34,439 nucleotides of DNA from Acidobacteriaceae bacterium (lineage in GTDB: Bacteria; Acidobacteriota; Terriglobia; Terriglobales; Acidobacteriaceae): positions 1 through 34,439 of the forward strand of contig PLUW01000037.1 of the NCBI GenBank assembly GCA_003162935.1, read 5' to 3'. Shown here piece by piece: positions 4,105 to 29,993 of this stretch. Every line of letters starts with the position of its first letter. The first letter of the stretch is position 1. Position numbers and translations under genes: made by a program. Under the pieces are notes generated by a model. The model was given only the letters and a program-made list of their open reading frames with translations, was not told the DNA's origin and made no database searches.

Positions 4105-5655
4105 ATGAAACTCGACGAAAAAATTGCCGAACTGAAAAAACGAGACCAGATGGCCGAAGAAGGCGGCGGCGCCAAGCGGCGCGAGCGCCAGCACAAAGAG
4201 GGCAAGATGTCGGCGCGCGAGCGTGTGGAATTTCTGCTCGATGAAGGCACGTTCGAGGAAACCGACAAACTGGTCACGCACCGTTGCTACAACTTCGGCA
4301 TGGCCGACCAGAAGATCTACGGCGATGGTTTCATCACCGGCTATGGGCGCGTGGAAGGGCGGCTTGTTTTTGTCTTCGCGCAGGATTTTACAGTGTTCGG
4401 CGGATCGCTCTCCGAGACCAACGCGGCCAAGATCGTCAAGATCATGGATCTGGCGGCCAAGATGGGCGCTCCCGTCATTGGGCTGAACGATTCGGGCGGC
4501 GCGCGCATTCAGGAAGGCGTGATGTCGCTGGCCGGCTACGCCGACATTTTTTTGCGCAACACGCTTTACAGCGGAGTGGTGCCGCAGATCTCGGCCATCA
4601 TGGGGCCGTGCGCAGGCGGCGCGGTTTATTCTCCGGCGATCACCGATTTTATTTTGATGGTCGATCAAACTTCTTACATGTTCATCACCGGTCCCGACGT
4701 GATTAAGACGGTCACGCATGAAGAGGTCACGAAAGACCAGCTGGGCGGAGCGCACACGCACAACGAAACTTCTGGCGTGGCGCACTTCATGTGCCGCGAC
4801 GATGCCGAATGTCTGTCGATGGTGCGCGAGCTGTTGAGTTTTATCCCGTCGAATAATCTGGAAGACCCGCCGCGCAAGACTTGCACCGATCCGATCGATC
4901 GAGTGGATGCGAAGCTGGACACGATCATCCCCGACCAATCGAACATGCCGTATGACATGAAAGATGTGATTCACACGGTGGTCGATGACGGATACTTTTT
5001 CGAAATTCACGAGCACTATGCCAAGAACATTGTCGTCGGGTTCGCGCGCTTCAACGGCAAGCCGGTCGGGATCGTGGCCAATCAGCCGGCGATGCTTGCG
5101 GGCACGCTCGATATCAACGCGTCGGTGAAGGGCGCGCGTTTTGTGCGCTTCTGCGATTGCTTCAATATTCCGCTGGTGACGTTTGAAGATGTGCCTGGTT
5201 TTCTGCCCGGCACGCAGCAGGAGTACGGGGGAATCATCCGGCATGGCGCGAAGTTGCTCTATGCGTTTGCGGAAGCGACCGTGCCGAAGGTGACGGTGAT
5301 TACGCGCAAGGCTTACGGAGGAGCGTATTGCGTCATGGCGTCCAAGCACATTCGCACGGACGTGAATTACGCCTGGCCGAGCGCGGAGATCGCGGTGATG
5401 GGGCCGGAGGGCGCGGTGGATATCGTCTACAAGCGCGAACTGGATGGCGCCAAGAATCGCGAAGCGGCGCGGCAGGAGAAGATCGAAGAATTCCGCGACA
5501 CTCTGGCCAATCCCTACGTGGCGGCTGATCGCGGATTTGTGGATGCGGTGATCCAGCCGCGCGAGACGCGCAAGAAGCTGATCCAGGCGCTGGAGATGCT
5601 GGAGACCAAGCGGGATAAGAATCCGCCGAAGAAGCATGGGAATATACCGCTGTAG
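4105..5655 (+). CDS. pccB: Acyl-CoA (probably propionyl-CoA) carboxylase carboxyltransferase subunit
   Basis: A 516-residue biotin-dependent carboxyltransferase of the PCCB/MmdA type. It transfers CO2 from carboxybiotin to acyl-CoA, usually propionyl-CoA to give methylmalonyl-CoA. The two crotonase-like halves are clear. The N-terminal half has GGARIQEGV and the oxyanion-hole segment [16 protein letters not shown]. The C-terminal half has [24 protein letters not shown] and [19 protein letters not shown], then the 'P..AA.RG.VD.VI.P..TR' end. Length fits the family (about 510-540). The biotin carboxylase and carrier subunits are not in this window, so the holoenzyme depends on genes elsewhere. 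Acetyl-CoA carboxylase AccD is unlikely because the N-terminal zinc ribbon is absent. A decarboxylase subunit (MmdA) remains possible. A leaderless start is possible (TATAAT at 4091). Confidence 0.93.
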
Positions 5656-20515: not shown

Positions 20516-20894
20516 AAGGACCTCCTGCGAAGTAGAGGGGACGGCTAAAATCCGGGGGGAGGGAGAGCTAGCCTGAACCGCCCGAAGAAGCGAGGCAGTT
20601 TGCAGCCTATTCGGGCAGCGATGGGTTGATATGGCCGCTTTGCCAGCGCCCAAATCAGGATAGCTCTTGCATATCATCACTTGCGGGTGCATCTTCTTGC
20701 AACTCTCCGCTTGGTGTAGCCGGGCGAGTTAATTGATTGGGCTAACCCATTTGGGTAGTGTTTCGCTGGCTAACCAAAGGTGGAATTGACGCATGGCCGA
20801 ATCTGGGTTTAGATGGGGCTTGGATCACGGGTGCCAGACAATGGGCCAATTTCGCGATTCTGTAGGGTTTCGCGCTCAAGAGATGGAATTAAAC
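20516..20894. promoter_or_regulatory. 379-bp divergent intergenic region
   Basis: Separates the large repeat-protein gene (-) from a small secreted-protein gene (+). No coding frame is convincing. It contains one copy of the recurrent near-palindrome (20742-20758) and a partial one (CTAACCAAAGG, about 20770-20780). It could control both genes. Confidence 0.55.
20742..20758. promoter_or_regulatory. Recurrent near-palindrome, site a
   Basis: CTAACCCATTTGGGTAG. It matches the consensus CTAATYCRNNTGGGYTAG seen at 24216, 24255, 26522 and 27975, with one base missing in the right half. It sits 137 bp upstream of the 20895 gene and 227 bp upstream of the leftward gene. Confidence 0.55.
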
Positions 20895-21296
20895 ATGAAA
20901 ACTATGAAAAAACTGATCGTTACGATGTGTATGACGGCCTTGTTGCCGCTTGCTTTCGCCCAAAGCGCGCCGCCACCGCGAGTCAACCCAGCCGAGGCCA
21001 AGAATCACCTTGGCGAGACCGCAGTGGTATGCGGGAAGGTGGTCGACACCAAGACTTCCCGGTACGGGATCGCCGGCCGCGGAAAACCGGTAACCTTCGA
21101 TCTCGACCAACCGGAGCCGAATCCAGTGTTCTACTTCGTGACCTTCGGGGCGCAGCCTGGCGGTCCGGAAGAAGCGCTGGCCGCATACAAGGACAAGCGT
21201 GTTTGCGTGACTGGCAAGATCAGGACGCAAGCCGGCGTGCCCTTCATCATGGCGGATGATCGTTCCCTGATTAAGCTACAAGCGGAAAACAAGTAG
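20895..21296 (+). CDS. Small exported protein, OB-fold-like
   Basis: 133 residues. A signal peptide (MKTMKKLIVTMCMTALLPLA, cut near FAQ-SA) is followed by a compact domain with VVCGKVVDTKTSRYG, PVTFDLDQPEPNPVFYFVTFG and RVCVTGKIRTQAGVPFIMADD, the strand pattern of a small OB-fold. It has two Cys, which could pair outside the cytoplasm. Start chosen at 20895; a second in-frame ATG at 20883 would add four residues, and GGA near 20886 is a weak ribosome site. No precise family is recognised. It follows the motif-bearing region and precedes another exported gene by 147 bp; a hairpin lies between them. Confidence 0.75.
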   Translation: MKTMKKLIVTMCMTALLPLAFAQSAPPPRVNPAEAKNHLGETAVVCGKVVDTKTSRYGIAGRGKPVTFDLDQPEPNPVFYFVTFGAQPGGPEEALAAYKDKRVCVTGKIRTQAGVPFIMADDRSLIKLQAENK

Positions 21297-23531: not shown

Positions 23532-24116
23532 CTAGAAGTCGCGGTCTTCCGGCGTGCAGCTGATCGTGCCAGAGCCGCTGCCCAGCAACTGCGCGTAGTA
23601 GCACAGGTTCTGGAGCAGGGTCTGTTCAGCCGAAACCAGGTTCGAGTCGTGGAACGCGGTTTCCGTCTGGACGTATGGCGCTGCGCCCTCGGGATACTTG
23701 TTCGCACTGCTCTGGATGTGGGTCGCCCAGCCGCGCAGGCCAGCTACCGGCGTGGTAGCGGTCGGGTCGAGGCTCGAAGACGAGATGACCTTGATGACGC
23801 CGTTGGGAACGGGTTTGCCGGTCAACGGGTTATTGGTCAGTTCGGTCTTCAGGGATTCCGAAAGCAGGCCGTCTGGCGTGATCTCGCAGGCGCCGCAAGC
23901 TTGCAGTTCCTGGCTGTTGTCGAACACGTAGATGGCCGCCCACAGGTTGCCAGCGGTGTCGCCGTCATTGATGAACCGGATCGTTGCATCCGGAGCAGCA
24001 GAGACGTTGTTGGCAAAATAAGTGGTGAAATAGACGCTGTTATCTTGCGCGAAGGCGTTTCCCCCGAGCATCAGGGCGATGGTCAGAACTACGAACACAA
24101 ATCCTAGCTTTTTCAT
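23532..24116 (-). CDS. Secreted protein with Cys-containing YVFD/LGSGSG domain
   Basis: 194 residues. A signal peptide (MKKLGFVFVVLTIALMLGG, cut near AFA-QD) leaves essentially one domain. Key segments: YFANNVSAAPDATIRFINDG, AAIYVFDNSQELQACGACEI, DGLLSESLKTELTNNPLTG, GVIKVISSSS, GWATHIQ and LLQNLCYYAQLLGSGSGTIS-C. The C-terminal 170 residues of the Big2 lipoprotein at 28089-29993 show the same order of motifs, so both belong to one family. Conserved Cys (CGAC/CCGC, NLC, final C) suggest disulfides. AGGAGG with a 9-nt gap precedes the ATG. Two copies of the recurrent near-palindrome lie 100-156 bp upstream and a strong terminator follows. Function unknown. Confidence 0.82.
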   Translation of the reverse strand: MKKLGFVFVVLTIALMLGGNAFAQDNSVYFTTYFANNVSAAPDATIRFINDGDTAGNLWAAIYVFDNSQELQACGACEITPDGLLSESLKTELTNNPLTGKPVPNGVIKVISSSSLDPTATTPVAGLRGWATHIQSSANKYPEGAAPYVQTETAFHDSNLVSAEQTLLQNLCYYAQLLGSGSGTISCTPEDRDF

Positions 24117-24215
24117 TTGTTGGATCCTCCTGGGTTTGTTTTGCCGCGCCTTGCGCTGGGGGAGGATCAGCTACGGGCGCTGGAAGAACTCTACCTTTTC
24201 TAGATTTCTTTACAA

Positions 24216-24232
24216 GTACCCACGTGGATTAG
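24216..24232 (-). promoter_or_regulatory. Recurrent near-palindrome, site b1
   Basis: On the minus strand it reads CTAATCCACGTGGGTAC. It sits 100 bp upstream of the secreted Cys-protein start and about 40 bp, centre to centre, from site b2, roughly four helical turns, in the opposite orientation. Confidence 0.6.
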
Positions 24233-24254: not shown

Positions 24255-24272
24255 CTAGTCCAAGTGGGTTAC
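24255..24272 (+). promoter_or_regulatory. Recurrent near-palindrome, site b2
   Basis: CTAGTCCAAGTGGGTTAC, fitting the consensus CTAATYCRNNTGGGYTAG at nearly every fixed position. It lies 139-156 bp upstream of the secreted Cys-protein gene. Confidence 0.6.
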
Positions 24273-24365: not shown

Positions 24366-26246
24366 TTATTGCTGCTGCTGCGGTTGAAGCTGTTCGCGGA
24401 GCTGTTGCGCCCGCTCCCGCATCAGTTTTCCCATAATCTCCGGAGTCAACGACTCCTTCGGCGGCAAGCTTGCAGGGTCGATGGGCAGGGGCGCGCTCAC
24501 GCTGGAGGGAGCCGTTGGCGGTGGTGTCCACAATACGGAGGCTGTGGCAGTGTTCGTGACTTCCGGCGGAACGCCTGGGAGCGCTTGTTCTCCCCGCAGC
24601 GAGAGCAGAACTTGTGCCGGCATGTTCGGGTTTTGCGACGAGCTCACGATGATGAAGTCGTAGGCGGAACCATTGAGCAGCCGTACCAGCACATCCTGTG
24701 CCGGCGCCGGGCCATCATGTTCAAAAATTCGCTCCAGGCCGCTGCCCGGAGGCACCTCGATCGCCGCCCCACTCTTCTCGGCAACCAGCTTCAGCACCTC
24801 GGCCAGCGTTGCGTTGCGCGCATCAATCGTCAATTGGCCATCGCGATAGGTGACGACGGGTGCATTTTGCGTGGCGACAGCCGTTTCCGCCGAGTCGTCC
24901 GGCAACGGCAGCAAGGGAGTGCCGCTGGCGCTCTTGCCAGCTACTGGGGCGTTGGTCATCCGCGTCAGCGGGGTTGGGATCGGGTCCGTAGGACGCGTGG
25001 CAATCGGTGCTGGCAACGGCGGAATTGGCGAGTTATGAGCCAGGAGTTGGGTTCCAACCGTTGGAGCGGCAGCCACTGCGCGCGGCAGGGGAATCGTCGA
25101 GGCGTTGCGGGAATCGACTTGGATCTCGAGCCCCGGCGCAGCGGCAATCGCAGACGGCAGCGGGGGTGTCGAACCGCGAGCGATCGTCTGTGGTTCGATT
25201 ACGGGAGCGGCGGCGAGCGCATTCGGCAAGGGAAGCGTGGTGGCCTTGCGGGAAACGATCTGGCTTCCAGCGGCCGGCGCAGCCGCAACCGCAGCTGGCA
25301 GCGAGGGTGTCGAACCGCGAGCGATGGTCTGTCGTTGGACTACGGGAGCAGCAGCCAGTGCCTTCGGTAAGGGTAGCGTTGAGGCGCTACGGGAATCGAT
25401 CTGGATTTCGAGCCCCGGCGCAGCCGCAATCGCAGACGGCAGCGGTGGTGGCGAACCGCGAGCGATGGTCTGTCGTTGGACTACGGGAGCGGCAGCCAGC
25501 GCATTCGGCAGGGGAAGCGTTGTGGCTGTGGCTTTGCGCGAAACGATCTGGCTTCCAGCGGACGGGGCAGCGGCAATTGCAGCTGGCAGCGCGGGTGGTA
25601 ACGAGCCATGGGCGATGCTTTGTCGCTCCATGGCAGGCGGCGCAGTAACCGCATTCGGCAGCGACGGCAGCGAATCCCTGGAGGCAACGGTCTGAGTCTG
25701 AACCACTGGCGGCGGCGCGGTAGCATGTGGCAGCGGCGGGAATTGGGCGCCAGCCGCTATACTGCGTCCTCCAACCGCGAGGTCCGCGATCTGTTGAATT
25801 TCCGGGGTGGAGACAGGGGCAGGGACAGGGGCGGAGGCAGGGCTGGTTTTCGTCGCCGCAGCCGGTGCCAGCTGGATCTGCGTCAATACCGAGTAATTAG
25901 GATCCGATACCAGAACGCCTTCCAGCGTCACCACCTGAGGCTCTGGAAGTGAAGCTGGCGTCCGATAGACTCCCTTGTCGTCGATGCTGCCGCAAGCCAG
26001 GCCGGAGCAGCCGAGCCCGGAAACATTCCAATGCACGGCCACCGGTTTTCCCTGCGCGTCCGTTACTTCGAAGCGCTGGACTTGGTCGGCTGCTACCGTC
26101 GGCTCACTAGGACGAATGATGAACTTGTGTTGAAATCCATGTGCCGTGCGCCGCACGATCAGGGCGGGTGGATCGGAATTCGGCGACGCCGAGAGCGCCT
26201 GCCATCCGAAACCGGCCAGCAGGATCGTTAAGAGTATTCCGCGCAT
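24366..26246 (-). CDS. Exported Pro/Ala-repeat protein with Ig-like and STN-like domains
   Basis: 626 residues from ATG 26246, which begins a clean signal peptide (MRGILLTILLAGFGWQALSA). An ATG at 26333 preceded by GAGG is an alternative with a longer N-terminus. Residues about 30-120 form a Big2-like Ig domain (VHWNVSGLGCSGLACGSIDD, then GVYRTPASLPEPQVVTLEGV). The middle is a Pro/Ala-rich tandem array with a 47-residue period (QTIARGSxPxLPxAIAAAP ... TLPLPxALAAAPVV). From about 464 a short secretin/TonB N-terminal (STN)-like domain follows (GQLTIDARNATLAEVLKLVA, then LVRLLNGSAYDFIIV). The end is Gln-rich. The array may span the periplasm or cell wall, like a Pro-rich spacer in TonB-type proteins. 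Function unknown. Confidence 0.82.
   Translation of the reverse strand: MRGILLTILLAGFGWQALSASPNSDPPALIVRRTAHGFQHKFIIRPSEPTVAADQVQRFEVTDAQGKPVAVHWNVSGLGCSGLACGSIDDKGVYRTPASLPEPQVVTLEGVLVSDPNYSVLTQIQLAPAAATKTSPASAPVPAPVSTPEIQQIADLAVGGRSIAAGAQFPPLPHATAPPPVVQTQTVASRDSLPSLPNAVTAPPAMERQSIAHGSLPPALPAAIAAAPSAGSQIVSRKATATTLPLPNALAAAPVVQRQTIARGSPPPLPSAIAAAPGLEIQIDSRSASTLPLPKALAAAPVVQRQTIARGSTPSLPAAVAAAPAAGSQIVSRKATTLPLPNALAAAPVIEPQTIARGSTPPLPSAIAAAPGLEIQVDSRNASTIPLPRAVAAAPTVGTQLLAHNSPIPPLPAPIATRPTDPIPTPLTRMTNAPVAGKSASGTPLLPLPDDSAETAVATQNAPVVTYRDGQLTIDARNATLAEVLKLVAEKSGAAIEVPPGSGLERIFEHDGPAPAQDVLVRLLNGSAYDFIIVSSSQNPNMPAQVLLSLRGEQALPGVPPEVTNTATASVLWTPPPTAPSSVSAPLPIDPASLPPKESLTPEIMGKLMRERAQQLREQLQPQQQQ
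25171..25593 (-). repeat. Tandem coding repeats, 141-bp period
   Basis: GAACCGCGAGCGAT recurs at 25171, 25312 and 25453, exactly 141 bp (47 codons) apart. More degenerate units extend on both sides (about 25040-25740). They encode the Pro/Ala-rich spacer. Minus-strand sense: QTIARGS and LPLPNALAAAP motifs. Confidence 0.85.
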
Positions 26247-26485
26247 GGTTTTTGGGATGAAAAAGGGCGACTCGATAAACCACCGCGACCCGCCGACTCC
26301 ACGATCGCACTTGGCTCGAATGTCCTTACGCATTACCGCCTCAGTTCCAGGCGCCGCCATGCATCGCATGGGCGCGCATTCACTACTTTGGATGCGGCTT
26401 GCGCCACCGCGTGCGGGGAAGGCTGCGTTGCTAGGGGGAGCGTACTCCTGCTCAGTAGACTACGGCAATCCCCGGCCAGCAACTC

Positions 26486-26499
26486 CACGAACGGGTTAG
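26486..26499 (-). promoter_or_regulatory. Recurrent near-palindrome, partial site c2
   Basis: On the minus strand CTAACCCGTTCGTG, a good left half and poor right half of the consensus. It lies 23 bp from the full site at 26522, in the opposite orientation. Confidence 0.4.
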
Positions 26500-26521: not shown

Positions 26522-26539
26522 CTAATTCGTTTGGGCTAT
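26522..26539 (+). promoter_or_regulatory. Recurrent near-palindrome, site c1
   Basis: CTAATTCGTTTGGGCTAT. It differs from the copy at 27975 only at the two central bases and the last base. It lies between the Pro/Ala-repeat gene and the LuxR-type regulator and could serve either. Confidence 0.6.
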
Positions 26540-26749: not shown

Positions 26750-26778
26750 TTGACAAAGTGGGCCCTGTGCGGGATACT
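26750..26778 (+). promoter_or_regulatory. Sigma70-like promoter for the LuxR-type regulator
   Basis: TTGACA (26750-26755), a spacer of exactly 17 bp, then GATACT (26773-26778; 4 of 6 to consensus). The expected start is near 26785, leaving a leader of about 175 nt before the regulator start at 26963. I recognise no riboswitch in the leader. Confidence 0.6.
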
Positions 26779-26962: not shown

Positions 26963-27508
26963 GTGACAATGGCAGCGAGCGACAACGGCTTCTTGCTCCT
27001 GGATGCCGGGTTGAATCTGATTGCTTCGAATGCGCCCGCCCTGCAGATCCTATGTTTCCCCAGCGGGCCAGACCGCATCAAGCAGCCCAAGGTCTTTCTG
27101 GCCGATCGCGTACGCACTTCGCTGCTCGACCACCGCAATCAGGACAGCCCGAACTTTGTCAGCGAGTTCCGATCGGGGAAGCGTCGTTATATTTGCAAGA
27201 GCTTTCAACTGGACGGTAACGGACAACATCCGGTTCAGCCCGCTTTCGCTGTTCTGTTGGAGCGCAATGCCGTGAGCAGCAATTCAGCTCTGGCGGAAAT
27301 TGCCGATCAGTACGATCTGACGCAACGCGAAAAGGAAACCGTGGAGTTTCTCTTGCAAGGTCTTACCAGCAAAGAAATCGCCACTCGCATGAAGATCAGC
27401 CCCAACACGGTCAAGGCGTTTCTGCGATTGGTCATGGTTAAAATGAAGGTTTCGACTCGCTCTGGAATTGCCGGCAAAATTGCCGGATCCTCACGGGCGA
27501 ACGGGTAA
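26963..27508 (+). CDS. LuxR-type transcription regulator without receiver domain
   Basis: 181 residues. The C-terminal part (about 116-172) is a GerE/LuxR helix-turn-helix: YDLTQREKETVEFLLQGLTS, then KEIATRMKISPNTVKAFLR. The N-terminal 110 residues (NGFLLLDAGLNLIASNAPAL onward) resemble a degenerate PAS-like sensor and not a CheY receiver, since there is no phosphorylation Asp pattern. GGAGA at 26953-26957 fits the GTG at 26963 (5-nt gap); an ATG at 26969 is the alternative. A sigma70-like promoter with a long leader lies upstream, as do copies of the recurrent near-palindrome. It sits in the middle of genes whose upstream regions carry that motif, making it the best local candidate to bind it; this is inference. 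Confidence 0.88.
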   Translation: MTMAASDNGFLLLDAGLNLIASNAPALQILCFPSGPDRIKQPKVFLADRVRTSLLDHRNQDSPNFVSEFRSGKRRYICKSFQLDGNGQHPVQPAFAVLLERNAVSSNSALAEIADQYDLTQREKETVEFLLQGLTSKEIATRMKISPNTVKAFLRLVMVKMKVSTRSGIAGKIAGSSRANG

Positions 27509-27542: not shown

Positions 27543-27560
27543 CTAGTTCGATTGCAGAAT
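27543..27560 (+). promoter_or_regulatory. Recurrent near-palindrome, half site d
   Basis: CTAGTTCGATTG matches the left half and centre of the consensus; the right half is lost. It lies just upstream of the PilZ gene. Confidence 0.35.
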
Positions 27561-27586
27561 TTACGGAACTAGCGATTTCAGGCATC

Positions 27587-27913
27587 ATGCAAACTGTGAT
27601 GCCATCCTCAGCTCAAGAACGGCGCCGGCATGAGCGGTTTCCGCAGGTTCTTGAAATCCATGCCCGTAGCTTGCTATCGGGCCGGACGGCGGGCGCCCTG
27701 CCCAAAGAATTCGAGGGTCGCATTCACAACCTCAGCAATGGCGGCATTTGCATCCTAAGTTCGACGCCCCTCCAGGCTGACACGTTTGTGACCTGCAACC
27801 TCCCGGTGCTCGATATTCCGGTTTCGATTCCAACGATCATGCAAGTGCGATGGACCACAAAGCAGGGAAACAAATCTCGGAGCTACATCAGTGGTCTCCA
27901 GTTTGTAGCCTAG
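27587..27913 (+). CDS. PilZ-domain protein (putative cyclic-di-GMP binder)
   Basis: 108 residues, essentially one PilZ domain. Both signature motifs are present: RxxxR in RRRHERFP (Arg13/Arg17) and NxSxxG in HNLSNGGICI (Asn48, Ser50, Gly53). PilZ proteins bind cyclic di-GMP and pass the signal to motility, export or polysaccharide machinery. No signal peptide, so cytoplasmic. The ATG at 27587 is used; an in-frame ATG at 27599 is possible, and no strong ribosome site separates them. It follows the LuxR-type gene by 78 bp on the same strand, so the two may be cotranscribed. A half copy of the recurrent motif lies in the gap. Confidence 0.88.
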   Translation: MQTVMPSSAQERRRHERFPQVLEIHARSLLSGRTAGALPKEFEGRIHNLSNGGICILSSTPLQADTFVTCNLPVLDIPVSIPTIMQVRWTTKQGNKSRSYISGLQFVA

Positions 27914-27974
27914 CGCGCGGCCATCTTAAGTCATAAAGTAGTGGCCCGATGAAGGCCATGGGTGCCCGATTGAT

Positions 27975-28047
27975 CTAATTCGAATGGGCTAGTTCGAATT
28001 GAGAATTGAGATGGTATAGTCCAATTCATATAGTCCTAATAGGCTAG
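27975..28047. promoter_or_regulatory. Array of recurrent near-palindromes over the Big2 lipoprotein promoter
   Basis: Four related sites: 27975-27992 (CTAATTCGAATGGGCTAG, best match), 27989-28003 (CTAGTTCGAATTGAG, sharing CTAG with the first), 28016-28033 (ATAGTCCAATTCATATAG) and a shortened 28036-28047 (CTAATAGGCTAG). The last two overlap the spacer, -10 box and start region of the promoter at 28006-28034, while the first two lie upstream of -35. This suits cooperative binding. Confidence 0.6.
28006..28034 (+). promoter_or_regulatory. Sigma70-like promoter for the Big2 lipoprotein
   Basis: TTGAGA (28006-28011), a 17-bp spacer, and TATAGT (28029-28034); each box matches consensus at 5 of 6. 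The expected start is near 28041, leaving a leader of about 48 nt before the ATG at 28089. Confidence 0.6.
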
Positions 28048-28088
28048 TTTGTTCCCTCGCCCCTCCCCCGAGCCGACAGGTTTTCGCC

Positions 28089-29993
28089 ATGAGACTCGGT
28101 CCAGCCATTCGCGCCATAAGTGTTCTTAGTGCGCTCTTATTTTCCGGAGTGTTTGTGAGCTGCGGCGGGGGCAGCATGTCAACGAAAAGCCCCGCAAAAC
28201 TCACGCTCATAAAAATTGCTCCGTCGAAGCCGGCCCTTGCCAAAGGCACGACGATGCAGCTCGTTGCTACCGGAGTCTTCAGCGACGGCACCGAGCAAAC
28301 GTTGGACGCTTCTCTGACTTGGCAGTCCAACAAATCCTCGGTTGCCACAATTGACGCGCAGGGCAACGTGACCGGCGCCGACGAAGGCGTCGCCCTGGTC
28401 TCTGCGTCTTCTCAAGGGATCACCGGAAGCGCCTCGGTTACCGTCGGGCTGCCGACCTTACTCAGCATCGCCGTCTCTCCTTTTCAGTCGTCTTTGCCGC
28501 TTGGCGAATCCGAGCAACTCACCGCGACCGGCAGCTTCTCCGATGGAACCGTTCAAGATCTAACGCAATCCGCGACTTGGACTCCCGTTGCCCCCACCAT
28601 CGCCAGCGCCAGCGCCCAAGGTTTAGTGACCGGCGTGAGTGAGGGCGTCACGCAGGTGTCTGCCGACTATCAGGGTGTGACCGGCAGCGCGTCGATCACA
28701 GTCGGAGTACCAGCATTACTCAGCATCACCTTGGGTCCAGACCAGTCTTCTTTGCCCCTCGGTGAATCCGAGCCGCTGACCGCGACCGGCAACTTCTCTT
28801 ATGGAGCGCCTCAAAATCTCACTCAATCCGTGACCTGGACTTCCTCCGGTGCGGCAATCGCCGTGACTGCTCAGGGAACCGTAACTGCACAGAAACTGGG
28901 CGTCGCTCGCGTGTTTGCCGTCTATCAAGGAGTAACCGGCGCCGCCTCGGTCACCGTGGGACCACCGGCGCTGCTGAGTATCACAGTCAGTGCGAACCAG
29001 CTCTCTTTGCCCAAGGGCGAATCCGAGCCCTTCGCCGCCATCGGAAACCTTTCCAATGGAACCACCCAAAATCTAACGCAATCCGCATCGTGGAGTTCCT
29101 CCGTTTCGACCATCGCCAGTGTGGGCACGGGCGGCACCGTCGTTGCCAACGCAGTAGGAACCTCCACCATCAGTGCGACCTCTGCATCCGTCACCGGAGC
29201 CGCGAACCTGACCGTCACTCCTCCCGTGCCTATCGCCTTGAATATCAACCCGCCCACTTTGTCCATCGTTCTGGAGGGCAGCCGCCAGTTACAAGCGATC
29301 GCGACCATGAGCGATGGAACCACGCAAAATATGACCGGAACGGCGGCGTGGAGCTCGATCGAGCCCGCCATTGTCAGTGTCAGCCCGGGCGGACTCGTAA
29401 CTGCCCAGCAGGTTGGCTCGGCGACCATCCTCGCCCAAAGCAACAACCTGTCGGCATCGGCGAGTCTCACCGTAATACCACTGATGGCCGTGAGTTACTT
29501 CAGCCTGATTGATTCCGTAAACGCCGGCGTTGACGGCACGTATCGGTTGATCAATCCGGGTCTTACGGCCGGCAATTCGTCGGCCGGCAGCCTGTGCGCG
29601 ATGGTCTACGTTTTCGACCAGAATCAGGAAATGAACGAGTGCTGTGGATGCGCGATCTCCGACAGTGGCCTGCTGACTCTCTCCCTGCTCAACGATCTCA
29701 CGGCGAACACTCTCACCGGGAACGCGCCTCGGGCGGGACAAATCAAGGTCGTGCCCTCCACTCCCGGGCCCAATCAACAATGCAACGCCGCTTCGCCATC
29801 TCCCAATGGAGTCGTCGTGGGATGGGGAACGAACGCTCAGAATCCCTCAACCGGCGCCTCTCCCATTACGGAAGAGGAGTTTAGTTTGGTCCCGCTGTAC
29901 GGCGGCGAAGCGACCGTCATGGAGAACTTGTGCAGCTACATTCAGCAACTGGGCAGCGGCAGCGGCATCTGTACCTGCGGAACCGGCGGCTGA
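28089..29993 (+). CDS. Big2-repeat lipoprotein with Cys-containing C-terminal domain
   Basis: 634 residues. A lipoprotein signal (MRLGPAIRAISVLSALLFSG, then VFVSC, lipidated Cys25) is followed by a short linker and five Big2 Ig-like repeats of about 85 residues (each with the pattern L.IxxxxxSLPLGESExLTATGxF.DGT.QxLTxSxTW ... VTGxASVTV). From the Met encoded at 29484 comes a C-terminal domain of about 170 residues: YRLINPG, AMVYVFDQNQEMNECCGCAI, SGLLTLSLLNDLTANTLTGN, GQIKVVPS, GWGTNAQ, MENLCSYIQQLGSGSGICTC. The secreted protein at 23532-24116 is built of the same domain. It is anchored in the membrane and displayed outward, possibly an adhesin. The near-palindrome array and a good promoter lie immediately upstream. 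Function unknown. Confidence 0.88.
   Translation: MRLGPAIRAISVLSALLFSGVFVSCGGGSMSTKSPAKLTLIKIAPSKPALAKGTTMQLVATGVFSDGTEQTLDASLTWQSNKSSVATIDAQGNVTGADEGVALVSASSQGITGSASVTVGLPTLLSIAVSPFQSSLPLGESEQLTATGSFSDGTVQDLTQSATWTPVAPTIASASAQGLVTGVSEGVTQVSADYQGVTGSASITVGVPALLSITLGPDQSSLPLGESEPLTATGNFSYGAPQNLTQSVTWTSSGAAIAVTAQGTVTAQKLGVARVFAVYQGVTGAASVTVGPPALLSITVSANQLSLPKGESEPFAAIGNLSNGTTQNLTQSASWSSSVSTIASVGTGGTVVANAVGTSTISATSASVTGAANLTVTPPVPIALNINPPTLSIVLEGSRQLQAIATMSDGTTQNMTGTAAWSSIEPAIVSVSPGGLVTAQQVGSATILAQSNNLSASASLTVIPLMAVSYFSLIDSVNAGVDGTYRLINPGLTAGNSSAGSLCAMVYVFDQNQEMNECCGCAISDSGLLTLSLLNDLTANTLTGNAPRAGQIKVVPSTPGPNQQCNAASPSPNGVVVGWGTNAQNPSTGASPITEEEFSLVPLYGGEATVMENLCSYIQQLGSGSGICTCGTGG

Follow-up and report, generated by a model that had tools for sequence, protein, structure and literature searches.

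Results

Genes of the locus and the candidate regulator

We analysed a 34,439-nt stretch of DNA, hereafter the window, from the 3.64 Mb draft genome (83% complete) of an uncultured soil bacterium of the Acidobacteriaceae, and compared it with Terriglobia MAGs, several of which are named Acidobacteriaceae or Candidatus Sulfotelmatobacter. The proposed target gene encodes a Big2-repeat lipoprotein of 634 aa (28089-29993, plus strand; Pfam PF02368) with a lipobox-like FVSCGGG. It is preceded by a gene for a PilZ-domain protein (27596-27913, plus strand; PF07238) and, two genes upstream, by a gene for a LuxR-type one-component regulator of 181 aa (26963-27508, plus strand). The order regulator-PilZ-lipoprotein was kept in six other same-genus genomes (seven including the window) and partly kept in other families of the class. 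The cluster also holds gene 20793-21296 and the minus-strand genes 23532-24116 and 24366-26369; the products of the latter two are probably secreted proteins, and 23532-24116 is related to the C-terminal domain of the lipoprotein.

The C-terminus of the regulator matched the GerE/LuxR-type helix-turn-helix (HTH) domain (PF00196, 51.8 bits; cut-off 23.5), with GerE (1fse) and NarL (1je8) as top sequence matches, and Pfam gave no receiver (REC) domain match. The N-terminus had no Pfam PAS match and was predicted to form a mixed strand/helix domain, the best matches of which were VqmA and isolated PAS domains (target-normalised TM about 0.5). For the whole chain of the AlphaFold model (pLDDT 81), the best fold matches were VqmA and EL222. 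The protein is predicted to combine a PAS-like domain with an HTH. Its own promoter, TTGACA-17-GATACT (26750-26778, plus strand), had no heptamer of the kind described below 17 bp upstream. One relative carries a second, 57% identical copy of the regulator (L055, G004 C150:26138-26668) directly downstream of its lipoprotein gene.

A phased array of sites on the lipoprotein promoter

The predicted promoter of the lipoprotein gene, TTGAGA (28006-28011) and TATAGT (28029-28034) separated by 17 bp, was recovered with a score of 10 of 12. We scanned 27960-28060 with the heptamer NTARYYC, a consensus learned from the relatives and the window together, and found plus-strand heptamers at 27975, 27989, 28016 and 28030 and a minus-strand heptamer at 27986. 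These five occurrences on both strands compare with 0.59 expected from first-order Markov shuffles (fraction of shuffles with at least 5: 0.0002). The plus-strand heptamers are spaced 14, 27 and 14 bp from start to start, and a further one begins at 28044. The original prediction had placed four sites here at spacings of 14, 27 and 20 bp; its first three starts and the spacings of 14 and 27 bp held, and the fourth site, at 28036, was dropped, the scan showing no heptamer there and those at 28030 and 28044 taking its place.

The fuller motif is an 18-bp dyad, CTARYCC-N4-GGRYTAG, with a period of 13-14 bp. Dyad I (CTAATTC GAAT GGGCTAG, 27975-27992, plus strand) lies upstream of the -35 box, and 67% of its columns were invariant across seven genomes. 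It is followed by a putative -35-proximal activator site (CTAGTTC, GAAT, TGAGAA; 27989-28005, plus strand), which begins 17 bp before the -35 box. Dyad II (ATAGTCC AATT CATATAG, 28016-28033, plus strand) covers the -35/-10 spacer and the -10 box, and dyad III (ATAGTCC TAAT AGGCTAG, 28030-28047, plus strand; 61% of columns invariant) covers the -10 box and the predicted start (about 28041). The fifth heptamer, CTAGTTT (28044-28050, plus strand), reads TTAGTTC or TTAGTCC in 6/6 same-genus orthologues. No -35 box stands 17 bp from any downstream heptamer of the window (28016, 28030, 28044), and these heptamers accordingly do not belong to a further promoter.

In the gap between the PilZ and lipoprotein genes, 41% of columns were invariant across the seven genomes at 27970-28050, compared with 6% in the preceding 53 bp and 24% in the leader. 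The heptamers varied mainly at the R and Y positions, and that at 28016-28022 solely at N, R and Y. Within dyad I, CTA, C, AAT and GGGYTA were kept in 7/7 genomes, and in one relative (G014) the dyad is a perfect palindrome, CTAACCC AAAT GGGTTAG. The heptamers over the spacer, -10 box and start (28016, 28030, 28044) were likewise conserved (7/7), although the 28030 heptamer overlaps the -10 box and its conservation could stem from the -10 box alone. In two other genera (L056, L061), inspection by eye showed that the lipoprotein promoter has a -35-like word with a heptamer-like word 17 bp ahead of it, and that a dyad lies immediately past the predicted start.

The TATAGT -10 box was invariant in 7/7 genomes, and the TTGAGA -35 box (plus strand) was among the least conserved stretches (17% invariant columns), being replaced in relatives by TTGCAC, TTGGTA and others. 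The description of this promoter as strong found no support, its -35 box being weak and variable like those of activator-dependent promoters.

Recurrence of the layout at neighbouring promoters

The PilZ promoter (27543-27588, plus strand) consists of CTAGTTC, GATT and GCAGAA followed by the -35 box TTTACG (27560), 17 bp and the -10 box CATCAT (27583). With 24.4 bits it was the best match in the window of a PilZ-promoter matrix built from other genera, and it was kept in 8/8 same-genus loci. Relatives carry, for example, CTAATCC ATTT GAGGAG TTTACG, with the heptamer 17 bp before the -35 box in about 20 loci. The apparent GTG start of PilZ (27596), conserved in eight aligned upstream regions, lies about 8 bp past the predicted -10 box, so the mRNA may be leaderless or nearly so; the ATG proposed by the ORF finder (27587) falls within the -10 region. 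A second perfect PilZ-type promoter pattern occurs outside the locus in one relative (G014 C255:15519-15540), where it may mark another target or a paralogous locus.

On the minus strand, the promoter of gene 24366-26369 (26454-26499) combines CTAACCC (26499), the -35 box TTGCTG (26482) and the -10 box TCTACT (26459), and CTARYCC stood 17 bp before TTGCTG or TTGCCC in 7/7 genomes shown. A dyad, CTAATTC GTTT GGGCTAT (26522-26539, plus strand), lies between the divergent genes. The promoter of gene 23532-24116 (24188-24232, minus strand) combines CTAATCC (24232), the -35 box TTGTAA (24215), 16 bp and the -10 box TAGAGT (24193), with the dyad CTAGTCC AAGT GGGTTAC (24255-24272, plus strand) upstream of the gene. 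The region 20739-20814 (plus strand) carries a dyad (20739-20759) and the promoter of 20793-21296, with CTAACCA (20770), the -35 box TTGACG (20786) and the -10 box TTAGAT (20809), a layout also present in two relatives (G004 and G014).

The distance from heptamer start to -35 start was thus 17 bp at the PilZ, lipoprotein (27989 to 28006), 23532 (24232 to 24215) and 24366 (26499 to 26482) promoters, and 16 bp at the 20793 promoter. We counted -35-like words around 820 non-redundant heptamers from loci of other genera. The count was highest at offset 17 (21, the mean being 5.25), followed by 13 at offset 30; it is confirmatory and not blind because the -35 word list was chosen after the promoters had been seen. 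A promoter-consensus scan of heptamer distances was less clear than this simpler word count, with 17 standing out weakly (4 of about 33). In class II activation, a LuxR-type activator would contact polymerase from this 17-bp position. A dyad abutting the -35 box at a fixed distance, as expected of sigma-70 promoters that depend on a LuxR-type activator, was found at four promoters of the window and across genera. The 17-bp geometry and the weak -35 boxes support a reading as activation.

A common leader precedes targets of the 23532 type, composed of GCGCCA, a CCTCCCC loop flanked by the arms GCCGAGC and GCTTGGC, and then AGGAGG. This leader was found in L105, L107, L118-L121, L126, L128 and L130 (at about 4600-4700 in most) and in the window at 24114-24199 (minus strand), and its CCTCCCC loop could pair with the ribosome-binding site. 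In the alignment 85% of cells were paired, covariation was weak (one pair changed on both sides), and Rfam gave no match; the hairpin was accordingly not accepted as a proven RNA element. The lipoprotein leader contains CTCG CCCCTCCCC CGAG (28057-28073), possibly a small version of the C-rich hairpin.

Cross-genus prediction and motif specificity

We ranked sites in the window with a dyad matrix built from other genera, which is independent of the window. The eight top matches (27975, 20739, 24255, 26519, 24252, 28030, 26482 and 27540, in that order) were all intergenic and all within 20.7-28.05 kb, intergenic DNA making up 20% of the window. Dyad I at 27975 scored 22.2 bits, the second match at 20739 scored 17.6 bits and 28030 scored 15.3 bits; six matches reached at least 15 bits, compared with a mean of 0.1 in shuffles. 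In the organism's own genome, 3/4 distinct exact dyads lay on the window's contig. A one-mismatch scan gave 84 strand-matches, mostly background, with 24255, 26522, 27975 and 28031 clustering on the same contig.

In 37 loci of the regulator's near relatives, the dyad was enriched solely at spacer 4 (31 versus 2-11), and direct repeats were enriched at a period of 13-14 bp (34 and 53 versus about 10). Dyad density per 100 kb was 11.7 in these loci versus 1.2 in the Big2 loci of relatives. Far regulator loci (L122-L157) showed little dyad enrichment (2.7 per 100 kb), so the operator code may have drifted there. Among same-genus genomes, the PilZ-promoter pattern was present in 5/9 with the regulator and 0/15 without it. 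Because this version of the motif is confined to those same-genus genomes that carry the regulator, the 26963-27508 protein is the likely binder of the array.

The strict direct repeat CTARYCC-N7-CTARYCC was not enriched genome-wide in regulator-carrying genomes and fell below its reversed control. We discarded it as an unspecific genome-wide marker; 7-bp repeats in some relatives mimic it. Two Acidobacteriaceae-like genomes (G369, G412) contain many dispersed 7-bp tandem repeats of the CTAATCC or CTAACCC type.

Discussion

The motif is real, is kept in related species and recurs before neighbouring genes. It most likely forms the binding array through which the product of the adjacent regulator gene turns on a few nearby genes for secreted proteins. 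We consider it probable that the array serves the 26963-27508 LuxR-type regulator as a multi-site operator, through which it would activate a small local regulon. Each site would be an 18-bp dyad or half of one, placed every 13-14 bp. A regulator dimer at the 27989 heptamer, aided by a second at dyad I (27975), would contact sigma-70 RNA polymerase and turn on the lipoprotein gene from a promoter with a poor -35 box and an invariant TATAGT -10 box. The same layout would drive PilZ, the two minus-strand genes for secreted proteins and, at 16 bp, 20793-21296, and its presence at these neighbouring promoters would make the locus a regulon, small and local. At high regulator levels, dyads II and III, which cover the spacer, -10 box and start, would probably fill and so limit expression. 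Regulator binding, activation from the upstream sites and repression from the downstream sites are all inferred, and feedback repression via the downstream heptamers is the simplest reading that their positions suggest. Four observations weigh against this explanation: the strict direct repeat lacks genome-wide enrichment, dyads are sparse at far regulator loci, the 28030 heptamer shares sequence with the -10 box, and no heptamer stands at 17 bp in the regulator's own promoter.

Conservation, cross-genus prediction and geometry together give good support to a regulator array on a sigma-70-type promoter of the Big2 lipoprotein. The original prediction did not include the recurrence of the motif before neighbouring genes or the likely regulator encoded two genes upstream. 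It had further proposed both activation and repression, or cooperative occupancy; the fixed 17-bp distance between heptamer and -35 box supports activation, and downstream repression or cooperative filling is plausible from position alone. A fuller reading has one LuxR-type regulator turning on and capping the same promoter through a phased heptamer array. Class II activation would proceed from sites at about -53 and -67, occupancy of the spacer, -10 box and start would be self-limiting and, at some targets, a C-rich leader hairpin that can mask the ribosome-binding site would add a second control layer. We put this forward tentatively and think it possible, though doubtful, that it holds in full. 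If true, it would constitute a conserved module controlling surface proteins in Acidobacteriota that has not been described before.

Three other explanations bear on the array. A different DNA-binding protein, for example another LuxR-type regulator, might own the operator, the neighbouring regulator gene being merely co-inherited. GerE-type proteins may indeed be numerous, a loose first look giving 5-31 candidates per genome, but in many genera, and with differing downstream genes, the motif clusters near the gene for this regulator, and all 15 same-genus genomes without the gene lack the PilZ-promoter pattern, which makes this explanation unlikely. The identity of the binder aside, the regulator could be a repressor only, acting at all sites, with the upstream sites merely helping cooperative filling. 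Such a role would suit dyads II and III, which cover the -10 box and start and are conserved in 7/7 genomes, as well as the dyad past the predicted start in the two other genera. The fixed 17 bp and weak -35 boxes are, however, activation-like and occur at promoters that have no conserved downstream sites (PilZ, 24366), and we regard pure repression as quite unlikely.

It is very improbable that the array is what remains of a decayed tandem repeat of 7 or 14 bp and plays no part in regulation. There are 2.3 repeats of GAATTGA at 27996-28011, and CTAATCC-type 7-bp repeats do occur in some relatives (G369, G412); yet the dyad arms are selectively conserved in seven genomes, the same motif stands at unrelated neighbouring promoters and it was predicted across genera. 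A simple tandem-repeat origin was rejected on conservation.

Acidobacteriota are abundant, hard-to-culture soil bacteria in which the regulation of transcription appears little studied. Our preferred reading, a multi-site operator of the adjacent LuxR-type regulator, provides an operator code that is specific and testable, names a likely cognate regulator and lists target genes that are conserved across genera. Regulator, site and targets are thereby open to joint testing in a cultured relative, for example Paracidobacterium acidisoli (L095), in which a homologous regulator and PilZ promoter are present. A local LuxR-type regulon is of an already known kind; in the open-access literature, we found no published description of the CTARYCC-N4-GGRYTAG operator in Acidobacteria.

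Several known systems resemble parts of this one. NarL recognises several heptamers, variously arranged, on a single promoter. Response regulators of the NarL/GerE type have their HTH family in common with the window regulator, which differs in its heptamer and in having no receiver domain. VqmA, the PAS-LuxR quorum-sensing receptor of Vibrio and phage VP882, gave the best fold match to the whole chain of the predicted regulator, but the two share 12-16% identity, superpose with a large rmsd because their domains are placed differently, and have different targets; there is no indication that DPO, the VqmA ligand, acts on the window regulator. PimM and PteF of Streptomyces are one-component activators with PAS and LuxR-type HTH domains, which bind a short dyad with CTA/TAG-like ends. 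The PimM operator is the 16-bp CTVGGGAWWTCCCBAG (PMC6448028), and the window consensus does not conform to this operator of the PimM subfamily. In contrast to it, the window operator is an 18-bp CTARYCC-N4-GGRYTAG with arms of opposite G/C order, arranged in 13-14 bp arrays, and the proposed targets of its regulator, unlike those of PimM and PteF, are surface-protein genes.
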